A stretch of DNA of 33,131 nucleotides from Bacteroidota bacterium (GTDB lineage: Bacteria > Bacteroidota > Bacteroidia > Bacteroidales > JAUZOH01), in assembly GCA_030706565.1 (NCBI GenBank), contig JAUZOH010000004.1, forward strand, positions 1 to 33,131, read 5' to 3'. The translations under genes were made by a program, and so were the position numbers. The notes beneath the pieces were generated by a model. It saw only the letters and a list, made by a program, of their open reading frames with translations, did not search any database and was not told the origin of the DNA. Shown here piece after piece: positions 21,197-32,464 of the stretch; the first letter of the stretch is position 1; the number at the start of each line of letters is the position of its first letter.

Positions 21197-22084
21197 TTAT
21201 GCCCTAGGATGAGCCTGATTATAAACTTTTTTTAATTTTTCAAACGTATTGTGCGTATAAATCTGTGTGGCCGAAAGATTGGCATGACCCAATAATTCTT
21301 TAATCGCATTTAGATCTGCACCGTTGTTCAATAATTCTGTTGCAAAGGTATGCCTTAAAACATGTGGACTTTTCTTTTCTATCGTGGTAACATATGGCAG
21401 GTAACGATGTACTACCCGGTAAACCAACTTTCCATATACCTTCTCCCCCTTTGCAGTGAAGAAAAGATAATCAGCAGCCCCCATGCTTTTTATTTCAGAC
21501 GCCAAGGCCTGGTAACTTTCAATATCCTTATAGAACCTGCGGCTGATGGGTATCAGTCTCTCCTTATTCCTTTTCCCTAAGACTTTAATGGTCAAATTGC
21601 TTTTGTCTATATCCGCATTTTTTAAACCCGTCAATTCTGATAACCTCATGCCGGTACAATACAGCATCTCCAAAATCAACCTGTCCCTTAGGCCCCAAAA
21701 ACCATCGCCGAAATCCACCTCTTTAAACAATTTGTCAATACCTTTATGATCGACAAACTCAGGTAATCTCTTCTCAGTTTTTAAGGACAACACATGCTCT
21801 ACAGGATTATCCTTAATAAGTCCTTCCTTTAGAAGATATTTAAAAAATGATTTTAATGCAGTAAGCTTACGATTGACTGAGCGGGATGATAATCCTTCTT
21901 CCATTAAACTTACCACCCATAACCTGATAATCTGATAATTAAAATGCAACAGATCAACCTCGTCCCCCTGGCCTCCACAAAAGATGAAAAACTGCGTTAA
22001 ATCAGTTTTGTATGATGTAACAGTATACTTCGAACATCGTTTTTCATTTTGCAGATAATCAAGGAATGAATCAGCATAAGTCAT
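21197..22084 (-). CDS. xerC: Tyrosine recombinase, XerC type
   Basis: A site-specific recombinase of the Xer family, expected to work with XerD at dif to resolve chromosome dimers. The N-terminal SAM-like core-binding domain covers about 1-95. The catalytic domain carries all six key residues: R147 (C-T-G-M-R-L-S-E-L), K171 (L-G-K-R-N-K-E-R), H241 and R244 (H-V-L-R-H-T-F-A), H267 (L-L-G-H-A-N-L) and the nucleophile Y276 (Q-I-Y-T-H). The length is 295 residues. It lies between rpsU and hpf, a chromosomal setting, which argues against an integrase of a mobile element. The XerC label rests on context and on the better XerD match of the gene at 31568. Confidence 0.87.
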   Translation of the reverse strand: MTYADSFLDYLQNEKRCSKYTVTSYKTDLTQFFIFCGGQGDEVDLLHFNYQIIRLWVVSLMEEGLSSRSVNRKLTALKSFFKYLLKEGLIKDNPVEHVLSLKTEKRLPEFVDHKGIDKLFKEVDFGDGFWGLRDRLILEMLYCTGMRLSELTGLKNADIDKSNLTIKVLGKRNKERLIPISRRFYKDIESYQALASEIKSMGAADYLFFTAKGEKVYGKLVYRVVHRYLPYVTTIEKKSPHVLRHTFATELLNNGADLNAIKELLGHANLSATQIYTHNTFEKLKKVYNQAHPRA

Positions 22085-23528: not shown

Positions 23529-25754
23529 TTATTTTCTGGTTTTAATGATAAAAAACAAACCGCTTAGTACATTCAACAGGCAAACGATCATCCCAAATTT
23601 GAACATACCCAACCAGGGAATAAGAAAAACAGAGGCAAGCAAAATACCGAAGGCTGATCCTAAAGAATCGGCACTATATAAGGAACCTGCGACTTTTCCA
23701 TACTCACCCTTCTGAAAAATACTGGCCATCGAAAATTCCATTCCAATCAGTACAGCAATCATTAAGGTAAGGATGAAAAATAACAAATGAATAAGAACGA
23801 CATGCGTATTAATCTGTTTGAAAAAAAAGACGGCCATTGGCATCAATAAGGCATAAAGGGCAATAATAAGTTGTATTTGCAACATGGTTCTACGGTTGAC
23901 TTCCGCTATAATCCTGTGCCTGTAAAAAGCACCCAGTGCCAAACCTGCCATAAACAAAGTAATGATAACCCCTGTCATTTGAAATACATATCCATAAAGT
24001 ATTTGAAATGCCAATATCAGGGCAAATTCCAGCGAAGCAGCCGCAAAACCTCCGGCAAACATGGTTATATTCACTGCATTAAGACGCCAGTAAACAATAA
24101 TCATCAAAATAAACAGAAAAGACAGGATTAGCCAAAGATTAACCTTAAAATAGCTGAGCCAATACAAGGTTTGCCGGTAGCACGAAACCGGTATAAAATC
24201 CTTATTGACAGGTGCATTTTGATCAATCTTACGGAGGATATAGTGACTTCGTTGTGCAAGCAATTCATCCTCAATATAATATTTATTTACATACAGATTG
24301 GAGATTTTCAATGATTCAACCAGGCTTGCAACTTTCAGGCTCAAAGGTTTATCAGAGGCGATAAAATAATTCTTCATCCCGGGAATGATTAATACATTTT
24401 TAAATGAAGTTTTCAGGGTATTGTACAACACCGAATTCAAATCAGCAACTTCCCTGCTCACATAATCGGAAGTAGACATCAGCCTATAAGAAACCACCGC
24501 CCCGGGAAGAAGCTTACTTTTTAATTCCTTTAGAAATTCAACGGTATAGTAGCGGTTGATTTCAGAAGTGCCCGGTTCCGGTAAATTGATCAAAGCAACA
24601 TCATACAAAACAGGCGTCCGTTTGATATACAACCTGGCATCCTGATTAATAACATGAATCCCCCTATGGTTTAAAGAATGAGTATAGTGCAAACCAACTT
24701 GAATTAGCCATGGATTGATTTCTACATAATCAATTTGATTTACAGGATATTTGAAAATTTCATCGGTAATGCCTGAAATTCCTCCCGAAACAAGTAACAC
24801 TTTCCGGGAATAAGGACGCTGGACCATTGCATAATGTGTATTTTCTTCATTTTCAATCATATTGGCCGTATTAAAAAGCAGCACATTATTTTCATAAAAA
24901 TTGAGTTGCTCTCCGGTTTGAGTAACCACAAGATTTCCATAAGGTGTCCCCTTTTGATATATCAGTGTTTGTCCTTTAAAAAGGTACTTTTTCATCAACT
25001 GGTCCCCGTTGATGCCAAAAGAAACTATGCCGCCAATCAGAATTACCCAGGCAAGTATCACGTAATAATAATTATATCGCCAATGCAGGCTGAAGTAAAA
25101 AACGGCTAAAAAATTAATGCACATCATTACCTGCAGGCATTGGACAGAAGGAAGAAGAAATACAAGAATAAAATTGAATAAAGCACCACCTATGACACTT
25201 CCCAAAGACTCGTATGCATACGTTTTGTTGATTTGGTTTGATAAACAAGTGTGAGAAATCAGTTTTGCCAAAGTGGTAAAAACAGAACCGGATAACACAC
25301 AAAAAGGCAAAAGCAGGACAAACGAAGAGGCAAGAATCTGAAAAAAGCCCAACATACTGCCTTCGGGGAAAATAACATTCTTGTAATAATCAAGTAGAAA
25401 AACGATAAGGATAGGTAAAACGCCCAAAACAATAAGTGATATAAGAACAAACTTCCTGCTGTTCTTAATCTTGAAATTAAAATACCGGCCGAGAAAGGCT
25501 CCCAGTGCCGTTAAAAGCATCCAGTTGCACAAAATAGCCCCGATAACAAGTTCATTCCCATAAAAGACAGTTAGAAACTCACGGATCAGAACTGTTTGAG
25601 AAAAAATAGCCGACATTCCAAGAATAAAGACTGCTATTTTAAAATCTTTCAGCAAGAATGACTTGTTGGACGGTAAAAGGTAACTGTAAACATCATTTTG
25701 ATTAGGAGTAAAAGAATTACTTTTGATGAAATGCCAAAGATTAAAATTCTTCAT
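23529..25754 (-). CDS. Polytopic membrane protein with embedded spermidine-synthase-like domain
   Basis: A 741-residue protein. The N-terminal membrane region covers about 38-245 (six to seven spans). A soluble Rossmann domain of spermine/spermidine synthase type lies at about 262-515, and a second membrane region of about seven spans at 538-737. In the synthase domain Y-Q-K-G-T-P-Y-G-N-L (266-275), the nucleotide loop S-G-G-I-S-G (323-328), the acidic ligand E345 (Y-V-E-I-N) and N-Q-D-A-R (370-374) are recognisable. The usual catalytic D-x-x-D-P is N-L-P-E-P (390-394). The two membrane halves resemble each other around Y-E-S-L-G-S (181-186) and A-D-S-L-G-S (695-700). A true aminopropyltransferase role is therefore doubtful. 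It lies 106 bp after the MEMO-AMMECR1 fusion gene. Confidence 0.8.
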   Translation of the reverse strand: MKNFNLWHFIKSNSFTPNQNDVYSYLLPSNKSFLLKDFKIAVFILGMSAIFSQTVLIREFLTVFYGNELVIGAILCNWMLLTALGAFLGRYFNFKIKNSRKFVLISLIVLGVLPILIVFLLDYYKNVIFPEGSMLGFFQILASSFVLLLPFCVLSGSVFTTLAKLISHTCLSNQINKTYAYESLGSVIGGALFNFILVFLLPSVQCLQVMMCINFLAVFYFSLHWRYNYYYVILAWVILIGGIVSFGINGDQLMKKYLFKGQTLIYQKGTPYGNLVVTQTGEQLNFYENNVLLFNTANMIENEENTHYAMVQRPYSRKVLLVSGGISGITDEIFKYPVNQIDYVEINPWLIQVGLHYTHSLNHRGIHVINQDARLYIKRTPVLYDVALINLPEPGTSEINRYYTVEFLKELKSKLLPGAVVSYRLMSTSDYVSREVADLNSVLYNTLKTSFKNVLIIPGMKNYFIASDKPLSLKVASLVESLKISNLYVNKYYIEDELLAQRSHYILRKIDQNAPVNKDFIPVSCYRQTLYWLSYFKVNLWLILSFLFILMIIVYWRLNAVNITMFAGGFAAASLEFALILAFQILYGYVFQMTGVIITLFMAGLALGAFYRHRIIAEVNRRTMLQIQLIIALYALLMPMAVFFFKQINTHVVLIHLLFFILTLMIAVLIGMEFSMASIFQKGEYGKVAGSLYSADSLGSAFGILLASVFLIPWLGMFKFGMIVCLLNVLSGLFFIIKTRK

Positions 25755-25860: not shown

Positions 25861-27408
25861 TTATTTTTCTTCAGAAAACACGTAGGCTTCATAAGTATAT
25901 AATTCGGCATCCTTCCAGCCATCCCAACCAATTCCTGCTTTGTCGCGTGCACAATGCCCCAGGAATTCTTCTTTGCTCCAACCTGTTGATTTGGCAACTT
26001 GTGGCAAAAATGTTCCGCTTCTAAACCCTTTCTTTATATAAACGCCATGTTTTCCCAGGATGATTTCGTCAATGGAATGTATTCTCTTCATAGGTGTGAG
26101 GACAGAAATCTCAATTCGAAGCTGAGGAACCTCACTTTTTTCTACTTCAGGGAAACGGGGATCCTGCGTGGCAGCCGAAACAGCCATTTGCTGGACGACT
26201 TCATATAAAGGTTCGTTAGAAGTGAAATTCCCTATGCAACCTCTTAATTCACCTGCTTTGGTAAGTGTCACAAATGCCCCGCAGTTTGCAAGTAAGGCTT
26301 TGGGAAGCTCGTTTTTATTAATTTCAGGTATCTTTTTATTCTGTAAATATTGCTCAATAGTCTGACGGGCAATGGTCAGTAATTTCTTTTTCTCAACATC
26401 TGAAAGATTAAAAGCCGTCCGGTTTTCCTTTTTACCTTTTAATGTTGCTTTCAATCCAAAATAACCCACTACTTTGTCTTTATCCCCATAGGGGCTGTCC
26501 CCGGAATTTTTATATTGAACCGGAGTAATCGACACATTGGAATTACCCTGAGTCATGTACAAGAATGTCAGCACCGAGGGCCAGCCGCATAAACTGGTAA
26601 CCAGGTCAGGTATCCGCTTTGAGGCATTGCTTCTCAATGTTCTGATCAGCATATCAGGAGAATTGGACTCTATGGCTTTTGCCGTAAGATGATCTACTTC
26701 GATAGCATCCTGAAAGGATGGATAGTGGGAAAAATCTGAACTGATCACAAAAAGGTTGTCCATGGTCAAATAGGGTTTCAATGCCCCGGCAATTTCCTGG
26801 CAAGTTTCAACAGTTTGTGTCCCAAGCAAAATAGGTACAATTTTGAACTCTTTTTTCAGGTGATATTGGAGAAAAGGCAATTGAACCTCCAGGCTATGTT
26901 CCTGGCGATGCACATCAGCATCGCCGGAGAATATATCTGAATGTTCTTTAATTAGCTTATTGGCCAGGGGGATATCCACCTTAACAATTCCCAAAGGAGT
27001 AGCAAAATTGCCTTTGTTATATATGGCTGCACCTTCAAATGAAGCCCGATGGCTTGAGCCAATCACAAAAATATCCGTGTATTCACCCTCCGAAGGCAAC
27101 TGATTGATACTACTGGCAGCTACTCCTGCTGAAAACACATAACCCGCATGGGGACAAATAACTGCCACTACATGCCCCTCTCCTTCCCCGGAAAATTTGA
27201 TTGCCCTGGAAAAATATTTTTTCAGATCAGCGCGGAGGGAATCAGGATTGGAGGGATAAAATTGCCCGGCAACAGCCGGCTGTCTGGTCACCAGATTTTT
27301 ATCACTTTCAGACATCTTATTAACTTGTGAATGACAATAAGTAAATGAAAACAAAAGTCCCAATACAAAAAAAAGACACAACGGATCATTTGGCTTCCTT
27401 ATTCTCAT
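25861..27408 (-). CDS. AmmeMemoRadiSam system protein B/A fusion (MEMO1-like plus AMMECR1-like)
   Basis: Two conserved families fused. The MEMO-like dioxygenase-fold domain (about 42-325) keeps the residues matching the metal ligands of human MEMO1: H87 (C-P-H-A-G-Y), H120 (G-S-S-H) and C274 (S-L-C-G-W). The AMMECR1 domain (about 335-513) has its signature L-R-G-C-I-G-N-F at 388-395. Before them lies a probable export signal: basic R-I-R-K-P, hydrophobic L-C-L-F-F-V-L-G-L-L-F-S-F, then T-Y-C-H-S-Q. The ATG at 27408 is chosen. A TTG 12 bp earlier is less likely, and an internal ATG at 27315 would give a cytoplasmic form. The third partner, a radical SAM protein, is not in the window. The biochemical function of the system is unknown. 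Confidence 0.87.
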   Translation of the reverse strand: MRIRKPNDPLCLFFVLGLLFSFTYCHSQVNKMSESDKNLVTRQPAVAGQFYPSNPDSLRADLKKYFSRAIKFSGEGEGHVVAVICPHAGYVFSAGVAASSINQLPSEGEYTDIFVIGSSHRASFEGAAIYNKGNFATPLGIVKVDIPLANKLIKEHSDIFSGDADVHRQEHSLEVQLPFLQYHLKKEFKIVPILLGTQTVETCQEIAGALKPYLTMDNLFVISSDFSHYPSFQDAIEVDHLTAKAIESNSPDMLIRTLRSNASKRIPDLVTSLCGWPSVLTFLYMTQGNSNVSITPVQYKNSGDSPYGDKDKVVGYFGLKATLKGKKENRTAFNLSDVEKKKLLTIARQTIEQYLQNKKIPEINKNELPKALLANCGAFVTLTKAGELRGCIGNFTSNEPLYEVVQQMAVSAATQDPRFPEVEKSEVPQLRIEISVLTPMKRIHSIDEIILGKHGVYIKKGFRSGTFLPQVAKSTGWSKEEFLGHCARDKAGIGWDGWKDAELYTYEAYVFSEEK

Positions 27409-27760
27409 CTTTATTCTCAACTAGAATTTACAATTTAAGAATAAAAAATCAAAGAAGAATGGAATTTCTGAAATATTTTCAAGGAATGGAATTAAAAACA
27501 GGAATTATAAACTATTTATTAGAAAAATAATTAAATAATGACTCAGGTTAAAATAAAATTTATATATTTATATAGGTGAAAAATATCAGACAGATGATAA
27601 ATTGATTGTGTTTTTTGTATTCTTATCAATTAAATTTATTGTTAATCGTTTAAAAATAAAACAAATTCCCAGTGTTAAAGAGTACCCGGAAAATCTATAA
27701 GAGAGTACGGAGCGGTTGTCGAAAAGCTTTAAGAGTAGACCCAATAAAAAACTAATATTT
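27409..27760. other. Divergent intergenic region between the MEMO-AMMECR1 gene and the outer-membrane protein gene
   Basis: About 350 bp of very AT-rich DNA with no credible gene. It should contain promoters for both flanking genes, but no exact TAnnTTTG box with a TTTG partner was found on either strand. TTTTTTG at 27611-27617 is the only partial -33-like sequence on the plus strand. Confidence 0.5.
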
Positions 27761-28384
27761 ATGAAAAATTTTATAAAATTCTTATTAGTAATCTGTTGCA
27801 TGTTTGTTGTAAGCGGTGTTCAGGCTCAGATAAAATTTGGACCTAAATTCGGTTTAAATCTGTCGACCATGACCATGAAAGAATCAGGAATCAGTATTGA
27901 TCCCAAAACAAGGGCAGGCATACATTTAGGCCTTATAGGAGAAATACCTCTGCAAAACAATTTCAACATACAAACCGGTTTCTTTTTCTCAATGAAAGGG
28001 TCCAAGTATTCCGTAGGTAATACAGATATGACTATTTCACCAAATTACCTGGAAATCCCGGTTAATGCATTATATAAATATGAATTAGGTTCAGCAAAAT
28101 TATTGTTATTCGCAGGGCCCTACTTCGCTTATGGCATAGGCGGAAAATATAAAGCAGATGGTGAATCCCAAGATATTAAGTTTGGTTCAGGTGACAATAA
28201 TGACATGAAAGCATTTGATATGGGCTTAAATTTAGGAGCCGGCATTGAAATCAGTGATTTCCAAATTACAGCTCAATATGGTTTAGGATTGGCTAATTTA
28301 GCTCCCGTTTCTACAAATGATGCAAAAATGAAGAATAGGGTTTTCGGAATTTCTATAGCCTATTTAATGTCAGCAACTAAATAA
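27761..28384 (+). CDS. Porin-family outer-membrane beta-barrel protein (OMP_b-brl_2/PorT-like)
   Basis: A predicted outer-membrane barrel of 207 residues. The signal peptide begins M-K-N-F-I-K-F-L-L-V-I-C-C-M-F-V-V and ends at G-V-Q-A-Q, a standard cleavage site. The mature protein opens with I-K-F-G-P-K-F-G-L-N-L-S-T, the usual first strand of this family, and continues with alternating strands such as F-N-I-Q-T-G-F-F-F-S, Y-L-E-I-P-V-N-A-L-Y-K-Y and L-L-L-F-A-G-P-Y. An upstream in-frame ATG at 27716 is rejected because the 15 extra residues would hide the signal peptide. The gene is monocistronic, with a terminator 58 nt after its stop. Its ligand or role is unknown; PorT itself serves type IX secretion, but this general family is broader. 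Confidence 0.82.
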   Translation: MKNFIKFLLVICCMFVVSGVQAQIKFGPKFGLNLSTMTMKESGISIDPKTRAGIHLGLIGEIPLQNNFNIQTGFFFSMKGSKYSVGNTDMTISPNYLEIPVNALYKYELGSAKLLLFAGPYFAYGIGGKYKADGESQDIKFGSGDNNDMKAFDMGLNLGAGIEISDFQITAQYGLGLANLAPVSTNDAKMKNRVFGISIAYLMSATK

Positions 28385-31567: not shown

Positions 31568-32464
31568 TCAAGCCCCTGGCAGGAAACGTAAAATCATATC
31601 ACGCAGGTATTCCCTGTCCAGATGGGTATAAATCTCAGTGGTAGTAATGGATTCGTGGCCAAGCATCTCCTGAACGGCACGCAAATCAGCACCTCCTTCA
31701 ACCAGATGGGTGGCAAACGAATGGCGAAAAGTATGGGGACTGATATTTTTCTGCAGGCCTATTTTTTCTGCAAGCTCCTTGACAATGGTAAAGACCATGA
31801 TGCGGGTCAGCATGGAGCCCCTCCGGTTTAAAAAGACAATATCTTCTGAATCCCGGTGTATCCTTTTTAATTTATTCCTATCCCCGAGATATAAATTGAT
31901 TTCTTTGATGGCTTTTGGACTGATGGGAACCAGCCTTTCCTTACTCCCTTTCCCAAAGATTCTGACAAAACCCTCCTCAAAATACAAATTGGAAAGTTTA
32001 AGACTGATTAGTTCCGAAACCCTAAGCCCGCAGCTGTACAAGGTTTCTATCATGGCTTTGTTGCGCTGGCCTTCAGGCTGGCTGAGATCAATGGCACCTA
32101 AAAGTTTGTTGATTTCGTCAACAGTAAGTATTTCGGGCAACTTACGGCCTGTCCTTGGCGCTTCGAGCAAATCGGCCGGGTTGGTTTCTACTTCATCCTC
32201 CAGCATCAAAAATTTGTAAAAAGCCTTTGTCCCGGAAACAATTCTTGCCTGGCTATTGGCGCTCATATCTAATTTGCCTACCCATTGAATAAAATCTTCC
32301 AGCATCTTCAGATCAATCTGGTCAGGTTTAAGGTTGAGCTTTTTAAATTCCAGATATTGAGTAAGCTTGTGGATGTCATTAGTATATGCTTCTATAGTAT
32401 TTGATGACAAAGATTTTTCCAGCTTTAAAAAATTGGAAAAGTCCTTCTGATAAGTCTCCCACAT
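31568..32464 (-). CDS. xerD: Site-specific tyrosine recombinase XerD
   Basis: Resolves chromosome dimers at dif together with XerC. The 298-residue length equals that of E. coli XerD, and the catalytic residues fall at the same numbers: R148 (S-C-G-L-R-V-S-E-L), K172 (F-G-K-G-S-K-E-R), H244 and R247 (H-T-F-R-H-S-F-A-T-H), H270 (M-L-G-H-E-S) and Y279 (E-I-Y-T-H). The N-terminal core-binding domain covers about 1-105. It is separated from the AddB-like gene by 178 bp with no gene. A -7-like promoter box lies just upstream. A XerC-type paralogue is at 21197 in this window. Confidence 0.92.
   Translation of the reverse strand: MWETYQKDFSNFLKLEKSLSSNTIEAYTNDIHKLTQYLEFKKLNLKPDQIDLKMLEDFIQWVGKLDMSANSQARIVSGTKAFYKFLMLEDEVETNPADLLEAPRTGRKLPEILTVDEINKLLGAIDLSQPEGQRNKAMIETLYSCGLRVSELISLKLSNLYFEEGFVRIFGKGSKERLVPISPKAIKEINLYLGDRNKLKRIHRDSEDIVFLNRRGSMLTRIMVFTIVKELAEKIGLQKNISPHTFRHSFATHLVEGGADLRAVQEMLGHESITTTEIYTHLDREYLRDMILRFLPGA

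Follow-up and report, generated by a model that had tools for sequence, protein, structure and literature searches.

A gene whose product unites the MEMO and AMMECR1 domains (AmmeMemoRadiSam proteins B and A) in a single polypeptide, behind what looks like an export signal, raises the question of where this widely conserved three-part system operates and whether its radical SAM component goes to the same place. Radical SAM enzymes depend on a strong reductant and a reduced iron-sulfur cluster in addition to S-adenosylmethionine (SAM), supplies that are all regarded as cytoplasmic, and to our knowledge these enzymes are normally considered to be intracellular only. MEMO and AMMECR1 are both tied to human disease. 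A first-pass annotation of the window (the whole stretch of DNA analyzed here, 33,131 nucleotides) proposed that the fusion may act in the periplasm or at the membrane, which would keep it apart from a radical SAM enzyme in the cytoplasm. Both halves of this proposal are examined below, using the window and its genome, 59 genomes of the same order, and a larger set of loci containing relatives of the fusion.

The Fusion Gene and Its Neighborhood

Profile searches confirm the two domains on one chain, with both curated cut-offs exceeded (Table 1), and within the whole genome these domains are the sole match of each kind. The H, H, and C metal-ligand residues and the L-R-G-C-I-G motif, which the first-pass annotation had recorded as kept, are invariant in all 13 rows of an alignment comprising the window fusion and 12 relatives chosen as exported. 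The ligands were paired by eye, using motif and spacing, with H49, H81, and C244, the metal ligands of human MEMO1 (PMC11081632). No radical SAM family match was found among the 17 window proteins scanned, in keeping with the earlier remark that no such gene lies nearby.

Table 1. Positions of the features discussed in the text, numbered from the first letter of the window.
Feature	Coordinates	Strand	Remarks
Xer-type recombinases (XerC-like, XerD)	21197..22084; 31568..32464	-	Two genes on the same 33-kb contig
Third protein	23529..25754	-	741-aa membrane protein; follows the fusion downstream on its strand after 106 bases; recurrent neighbor
MEMO-AMMECR1 fusion (AmmeMemoRadiSam proteins B + A, one chain)	25861..27408	-	515 aa, stop included
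AMMECR1 domain, residues 342-511	25876..26385	-	TIGR04335 (protein A), 177.5 bits versus cut-off 99; LRGCIG at 388-393
MEMO domain, residues 42-319	26452..27285	-	TIGR04336 (protein B), 228.4 bits versus cut-off 26; putative metal ligands H87, H120, C274
Internal ATG (Met32)	27313..27315	-	Alternative start of the first-pass annotation; not conserved as a start among relatives
Predicted export signal, residues 1-27	27328..27408	-	Ends C-H-S, with Q28 next, as read for signal peptidase I under the Q-rule
Outer-membrane beta-barrel gene	27716..28384	+	Divergent from the fusion; weakly TDE1717-like (84.6 bits versus cut-off 135)
GldD gene			Marks the window as Bacteroidota-like

An operon with further genes was considered and rejected. 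In an all-against-all comparison of neighbors of at least 100 aa from 42 loci with the third protein, the neighbor families belonged mostly to one syntenic subgroup (L124, L128, L129, L131, L135, L141, L165, and partly L162). Two families spread more widely, one TPR-like (10 loci) and the other PAS/kinase-like, both named by eye and of common kinds; the latter lies near the cluster in L105, L106, L107, L177, and L180, which are otherwise non-syntenic. Small ORFs in 45 loci revealed nothing outside the syntenic subgroup, so a peptide substrate encoded next door is unsupported.

Export Signal and Start Codon of the Fusion

The N-terminus of the fusion (MRIRKPNDPLCLFFVLGLLFSFTYCHSQ) contains the basic residues and the hydrophobic stretch that had been described for it, followed by C-H-S before Q, and by eye and hydropathy it has the features of a Sec signal (i.e., a basic n-region, a hydrophobic core, and a small residue before the cleavage site). 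Here and in the surveys below, signals were called with a crude hydropathy/regex script and by eye. A hydrophobic N-terminus occurs at the same place in 13 of 13 aligned fusions, 12 of which had been chosen as exported, and in 11 of the 13 it ends with a small residue plus Q (eye count). In Bacteroidetes, Q is the new N-terminus of most signal peptidase I substrates (PMC5837995). Cys25, preceded by F-T-Y, lies three places before the Q, and since the same C-x-x-Q arrangement is seen in 8 of the 13 rows, the fusion could also be read as a lipoprotein.

The hydrophobic stretch would be left untranslated, and the fusion would be cytoplasmic, if translation began at the internal ATG, which supplies a methionine ten residues upstream of the MEMO domain. 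Among 76 signal-bearing fusions in the fetched loci, however, 40 lack any ATG between the hydrophobic core and the MEMO domain (script), and 18 lack ATG, GTG, and TTG alike; the long form is thus the only ATG form of those 40, and 27315 is not the start used by the family. The hydrophobic N-terminus is also kept in the aligned rows, although these were chosen as exported, and initiation at 27315 is considered highly improbable. Judged from these sequences, the hydrophobic N-terminus is a conserved export signal, and the first half of the proposal, an extracytoplasmic or membrane site for the fusion, is probably correct.

A Tat-Like Radical SAM Partner on Another Contig

In the window genome, TIGR04337 exceeds its cut-off at one place, on another contig (G000:C74; 340.2 bits versus a cut-off of 220). 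Three ATGs could start this ORF (L001 1270-2466), which is 398 aa long from the first of them and carries near its N-terminus the sequence MSKRDFIKCGIFGLGATAFLAKG, in which K-R (SKRDFIK) takes the place of the twin arginine. The protein resembles a Tat substrate but fails the strict motif, and is accordingly termed Tat-like. TatC is encoded in the same genome (G000:C20, E 1.5e-66) and in 56 of the 59 genomes of the order. The CxxxCxxC motif is intact in all 90 radical SAM proteins compared, including that of the window genome. The second half of the original proposal, that the fusion is separated from a cytoplasmic radical SAM enzyme, is consequently unsupported in this genome because the N-terminus of the sole TIGR04337 protein over the cut-off is Tat-like.

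The pattern [KR]R.F[LIVMA][KR] was found in 30 of 87 radical SAM ORFs versus 2 of 838 other ORFs from the fetched loci (both RR) treated by the same procedure. A looser Tat label, applied near the domain start, covers 41 of the 87 radical SAM ORFs (30 KR, 11 RR), 36 of which contain the strict pattern. Across 39 Tat-labeled N-termini, in rows chosen by the motif, the R is invariant, the F is present in more than 90%, and most keep KR/RR-x-F-[LI]-[KR]. As a sequence feature, the Tat-like motif on radical SAM proteins is not due to chance. Tat HMMs were dropped as proof of Tat export since their scores are weak and partial: at E values up to 1, PF10518 matches 7 and TIGR01409 matches 8 of the 39 N-termini (best E 0.007), and neither matches that of the window genome. 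Hydrogenases were likewise dropped as a calibrator for the KR form, as only three full-length genes were available from the order, all of them RR. Tat signals that have been tested tolerate a change from arginine to lysine poorly (PMC7317946). The KR form, found in the window genome and in 30 of the 41 Tat-type signals, counts against the Tat route and is the chief doubt about it.

Pairing of Export Signals across Genomes and Loci

The first survey covered 59 genomes of the order, the window's included, each from a different family. Radical SAM matches over the cut-off were obtained in 30 genomes and MEMO matches in 32. Signal-bearing fusions occur in 16 genomes including the window's (that of G036 is cut by a contig end), and in 12 of these the radical SAM protein is Tat-like (G000, G006, G010, G011, G018, G020, G036, G039, G042, G046, G048, and G053). 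The other four have a radical SAM protein with a hydrophobic N-terminus (G047), only an unsignaled one (G003 and G022), or none over the cut-off (G043). Fusion and partner are both unsignaled in G019, G025, G038, and G058, and in G023 and G054 the 5' end of the fusion is cut and the partner is Tat-like. Five genomes (G006, G011, G046, G047, and G048) possess an extra, separate MEMO gene adjoining a shorter radical SAM gene and hence have two parallel systems. In G034 (L094, on G034:C75), a run of three Tat-like radical SAM genes adjoins the third protein, and the sole MEMO match is a stand-alone gene. In addition to the two main MEMO classes, a distant third one is present in G010, G020, G029, G036, G039, G040, and G046 (open frames of 361-410 aa, 68-95 bits).

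The second survey covered 80 named loci, the best 80 of at least 584 relatives, with up to 9 kb fetched on each side; this set is biased because the query was an alignment of exported fusions. By script, a signal-bearing fusion was accompanied by a Tat-like radical SAM protein in 23 of the 80 loci, by one with a hydrophobic or Sec-type N-terminus in 6 (all Omnitrophota by title), and by an unsignaled one in 18. Both proteins were unsignaled in 7 loci (9 once two mis-started ones were corrected by eye), three loci contained single-chain forms, and a Tat-like partner was found once with an unsignaled fusion (L147, at a contig edge) and once with a cut fusion; 19 of the 80 had no radical SAM gene within the fetched stretch. 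By eye, the Sec label was withdrawn from the mis-started radical SAM proteins of L119, L136, and L084 (relabeled none), that of L063 was changed from none to hydrophobic, and all L094 rows were set to Tat; L080 was excluded from the label counts. When L063-L102 were added to the named loci, both proteins were readable in 66 loci, with both exported in 36, the fusion only in 18, neither in 11, and the radical SAM protein only in 1. That single locus is again L147, from the cultured marine Mangrovibacterium marinum DSM 28823, where a Tat-type radical SAM gene, the third protein, and the fusion form one cluster and the fusion, cut at the contig edge, has a 5' end unreadable in the record.

For the 19 named loci with no radical SAM gene in the fetched stretch, the search was extended to the whole genomes. 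Twelve of these loci have a signal-bearing fusion, and in seven of the twelve genomes a signal-bearing partner was found, with canonical R-R in L109, L170, L171, L176, and L181, K-R in L104, and a Sec-type signal in L167. The remaining five comprise one with only an unsignaled partner (L146), one with none (L152), and three that are unreadable (L106, a fragment; L125, at a contig edge; and L141, masked). Among the other seven genomes, L134, L137, L138, and L139 are unsignaled on both sides, L143 combines a signal-like fusion with an unsignaled partner, L147 has its Tat-like partner, and L132 encodes three radical SAM proteins, one of them Tat-like, alongside an unsignaled fusion, a combination that speaks against joint export.

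The separation of fusion and radical SAM enzyme proposed at the outset is thus unsupported in the window genome and in the paired majority, but holds by sequence in 18 of the 66 readable loci, which count against joint export. Fourteen of the 18 belong to one 17-member tree group, mostly of rumen Prevotella type by title, the others being L114, L133, L179, and L180. These loci fit the view closest to the original one, in which the fusion is exported for a separate job (e.g., metal binding), the radical SAM enzyme stays in the cytoplasm, and KR is a membrane hook or a decayed signal; the prevalence of KR over RR and the weak Tat-model scores fit it also. Some of the 18 signals are doubtful, however, because of TTG starts (L150, L158, and L180) or the lack of a basic residue in the first six positions (L114, L149, L157, and L160). 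The conservation of the N-terminal KR/RR motif, the R-R partners found in five of the whole genomes, and the single chains described below, which place the radical SAM domain behind a Sec-type signal, also stand against a cytoplasmic radical SAM enzyme, and this view is regarded as unlikely.

The loci L144-L163, which are of Prevotella type and mostly from rumen, show a short, signal-like fusion N-terminus (absent in some) beside an unsignaled radical SAM protein of ~290-300 aa, as if the system had partly returned to the cytoplasm.

Single-Chain Forms and the Radical SAM Tree

In L110, L122, and L172 (Bacteroidales by title), MEMO, AMMECR1, and radical SAM domains occur on one chain of 831, 843, and 838 aa, respectively, with hydrophobic N-termini that end in NAQ, FSQ, and FSQ. 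All three NCBIfam models exceed their cut-offs in L122. In chains of this kind, the location of the MEMO domain is necessarily also that of the radical SAM domain. The structure model of L122 is good for the domains (pLDDT 92.3) and unreliable in their arrangement (pTM 0.51), and domain contacts were dropped since this pTM is too low.

A quick tree of 90 radical SAM proteins, of unknown root and with 41 of 87 inner branches weak, sets the proteins of G003, G013, G022, G034, G036, G038, G039, and G042 opposite the other 82 (support 99). Seven of these eight are unsignaled and one is unlabeled, and they include the partners of the exported fusions of G003 and G022. The Tat, hydrophobic, and single-chain types are all found among the 82, the single chains as one group (98), with unsignaled groups nested inside: the Prevotella-type group (98), a group of L118, L136, L140, L071, L119, L126, and L127 (99), and a Thermodesulfovibrio-titled pair (99). 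This pattern may be read as export being old, with later returns to the cytoplasm. A tree-corrected association test was dropped because it offered only 2 to 6 independent pairs, too few for the associations to be shown free of ancestry. Some record titles may be misbinned: L120 is titled Aminicenantes, and its radical SAM protein forms a fully supported pair with that of G018.

The Third Protein

The membrane protein encoded downstream of the fusion matches the families of polyamine aminopropyltransferase and fused MFS-spermidine synthase (NF037959, 59.4 bits versus a cut-off of 40). Fusion, radical SAM, and third protein occur together in 24 of the 80 named loci, under titles of several phyla. 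Within the fetched stretch, the third protein accompanies 22 of 25 Tat-like, 1 of 6 hydrophobic, and 1 of 27 unsignaled radical SAM proteins of the named loci (Fisher 2e-10 for Tat-like versus unsignaled, a value that ignores ancestry). In whole-genome searches for 18 loci, the three single-chain genomes yielded no third protein, and three Tat-type genomes yielded none at full length (weak in L108, none in L111 and L121); these six assemblies may be incomplete. In the same searches the gene was absent from L133 and three Prevotella-type genomes (L144, L156, and L159), gave no clear match in the both-unsignaled L118, L126, and L140 and a weak partial one in L114, and was present in the Omnitrophota L168 (partial match) and L173 as well as in L179 and L137. 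The third protein is strongly linked to the Tat type but is not required for it. In L137 (Marinilabilia salmonicolor), the gene adjoins an unsignaled fusion, and the one radical SAM partner encoded in that genome has no signal either.

The model of the third protein (pLDDT 88.7, pTM 0.87) contains seven helices, a domain at ~250-534, and six helical elements extending to 740, the last of which could span the membrane twice (about 14 helices). In structure comparisons the inserted domain resembles spermidine synthases (Z 28 for 3anx with MTA; Z 22.9 for 3bwc with SAM), and the membrane part resembles MFS transporters including SV2A, OCTN2, PepT, and FLVCR1 (Z 22.7-27.2; 346-366 residues aligned at rmsd 3.7-4.7, and 385 at 9.6 in one row). 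Basic residues are located at the N-terminus, in the loops 89-102 and 609-626, and at the C-terminus, a pattern that would place the inserted domain on the outside, provided that it follows seven helices; the count of seven rests on the model, as the hydropathy script saw six, merging two neighbors. The inserted domain is therefore predicted to face the periplasm.

When the inserted domain was aligned to 1uir, the column taken here to be that of the catalytic Asp held D in only 1 of 25 third proteins and N in 15 (N390 in the window protein), and the columns of E345 and D372, presumed to belong to the nucleoside site, were kept in 22 and 24 of 25, respectively. Such a domain would still bind a SAM-like nucleoside and would make no spermidine. 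Alternatively, the third protein may be a polyamine synthase or transporter of the usual membrane-bound kind, a neighbor only by accident, as its family matches, its absence from some genomes with an exported pair, and its position beside the unsignaled pair of M. salmonicolor would allow. The rarity of Asp in the presumed catalytic column alongside retention of the nucleoside-site columns, and the co-occurrence of all three genes in 24 of the 80 named loci under titles of several phyla, are set against this alternative, which is judged somewhat unlikely; it is compatible with the favored explanation of the other two parts.

A further membrane domain of ~110 aa, in which the histidines are mostly conserved, is found at the N-terminus of 19 third proteins (L066, L067, L068, L069, L072, L085, L107, L112, L117, L120, L124, L128, L129, L131, L135, L141, L147, L162, and L165) and lacking in that of the window. 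Its motifs are HRKxWN (18 of 19), WHVxxG-like (19 of 19), and FHxxW-like (18 of 19), and in the four proteins scanned it had no Pfam match of its own. The histidine-rich domain is possibly heme-binding.

Where the System May Act

Computation establishes the genes, their signal-like N-termini, and a recurrent cluster, along with intact CxxxCxxC motifs and single chains behind a signal-like N-terminus; from these we infer the actual location, the formation of a complex, and the handling of SAM. Taken alone, an extracytoplasmic location is likely, and the chance that the window fusion belongs to an extracytoplasmic variant of AmmeMemoRadiSam is put at slightly better than even. In such a variant, the fusion would exit via Sec and have its signal removed in one of two ways, by signal peptidase I between C-H-S and Q or through lipoprotein processing. 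Its radical SAM partner, encoded elsewhere in the genome, would fold with its iron-sulfur cluster in the cytoplasm and cross by Tat. Their probable membrane partner would be the third protein, an MFS-fold transporter that carries its spermidine-synthase-like domain on the outside, and it may handle SAM or a related nucleoside for the exported enzyme. Tat, a hydrophobic N-terminus (mainly in Omnitrophota), and single chains behind a signal would then represent three routes to one side of the membrane.

The supplies are the difficulty for this variant, as we know of no periplasmic SAM or strong reductant. Both problems would be solved if the N-termini held all parts at the membrane with the catalytic domains in the cytoplasm, near SAM and electrons. 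A positively charged N-terminus followed by one hydrophobic stretch, however, normally adopts an N-in, C-out orientation. The ending in a small residue plus Q in 11 of 13 fusion signals also fits cleavage on the outside, given the report on Bacteroidetes signal peptidase I substrates (PMC5837995). An arrangement at the cytoplasmic face is thus quite improbable. For the extracytoplasmic variant, the supply problem would be solved if the third protein fed SAM to the exported enzyme, which is a guess; that it handles SAM for this enzyme is itself improbable. A complete exported set, with radical SAM chemistry outside, SAM supplied through its own MFS transporter, and the 19 extra domains perhaps bringing electrons across, is rather doubtful. 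As a guess, the substrate would be an envelope lipid, an isoprenoid, or an exported protein. If true, a wholly exported set would overturn the view that the supplies of radical SAM enzymes are found in the cytoplasm only, and the function of MEMO and AMMECR1 would be narrowed to something at the cell envelope.

Comparison with Known Systems

Among the matches listed by the literature search, with subscription papers mostly outside its scope, there was no description of an exported radical SAM enzyme, and no function for AmmeMemoRadiSam was found among them. Burroughs et al. reportedly studied the Memo superfamily in 2019. Among solved proteins, the nearest in sequence to the radical SAM partner is pyruvate formate-lyase activating enzyme (PDB 3c8f, E 3.5e-10), a cytoplasmic protein that is shorter (245 aa) and has no signal. 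Human MEMO1 is an intracellular single-domain protein, whereas the window protein is fused to AMMECR1 and is exported by prediction. The MEMO domain is nevertheless a sequence relative of human MEMO1 (PDB 7KQ8, E 6e-18) and shares its H, H, C metal site (PMC11081632). The third protein shares its sequence family and the fold of its inserted domain (Z 28) with fused MFS/spermidine synthase (NF037959) and polyamine aminopropyltransferase (1uir, 3anx), but differs from spermidine synthases in that the catalytic Asp column is not Asp in 24 of 25 proteins and in that the domain lies between two membrane halves, where it is predicted to be periplasmic. With the AmmeMemoRadiSam system itself, the window genome shares TIGR04335, TIGR04336, and TIGR04337 matches over their curated cut-offs and retains the metal-ligand residues, LRGCIG, and CxxxCxxC; it differs in that proteins A and B are fused and signal-bearing, the radical SAM protein is Tat-like at its N-terminus and unlinked, and there is a third, membrane partner.
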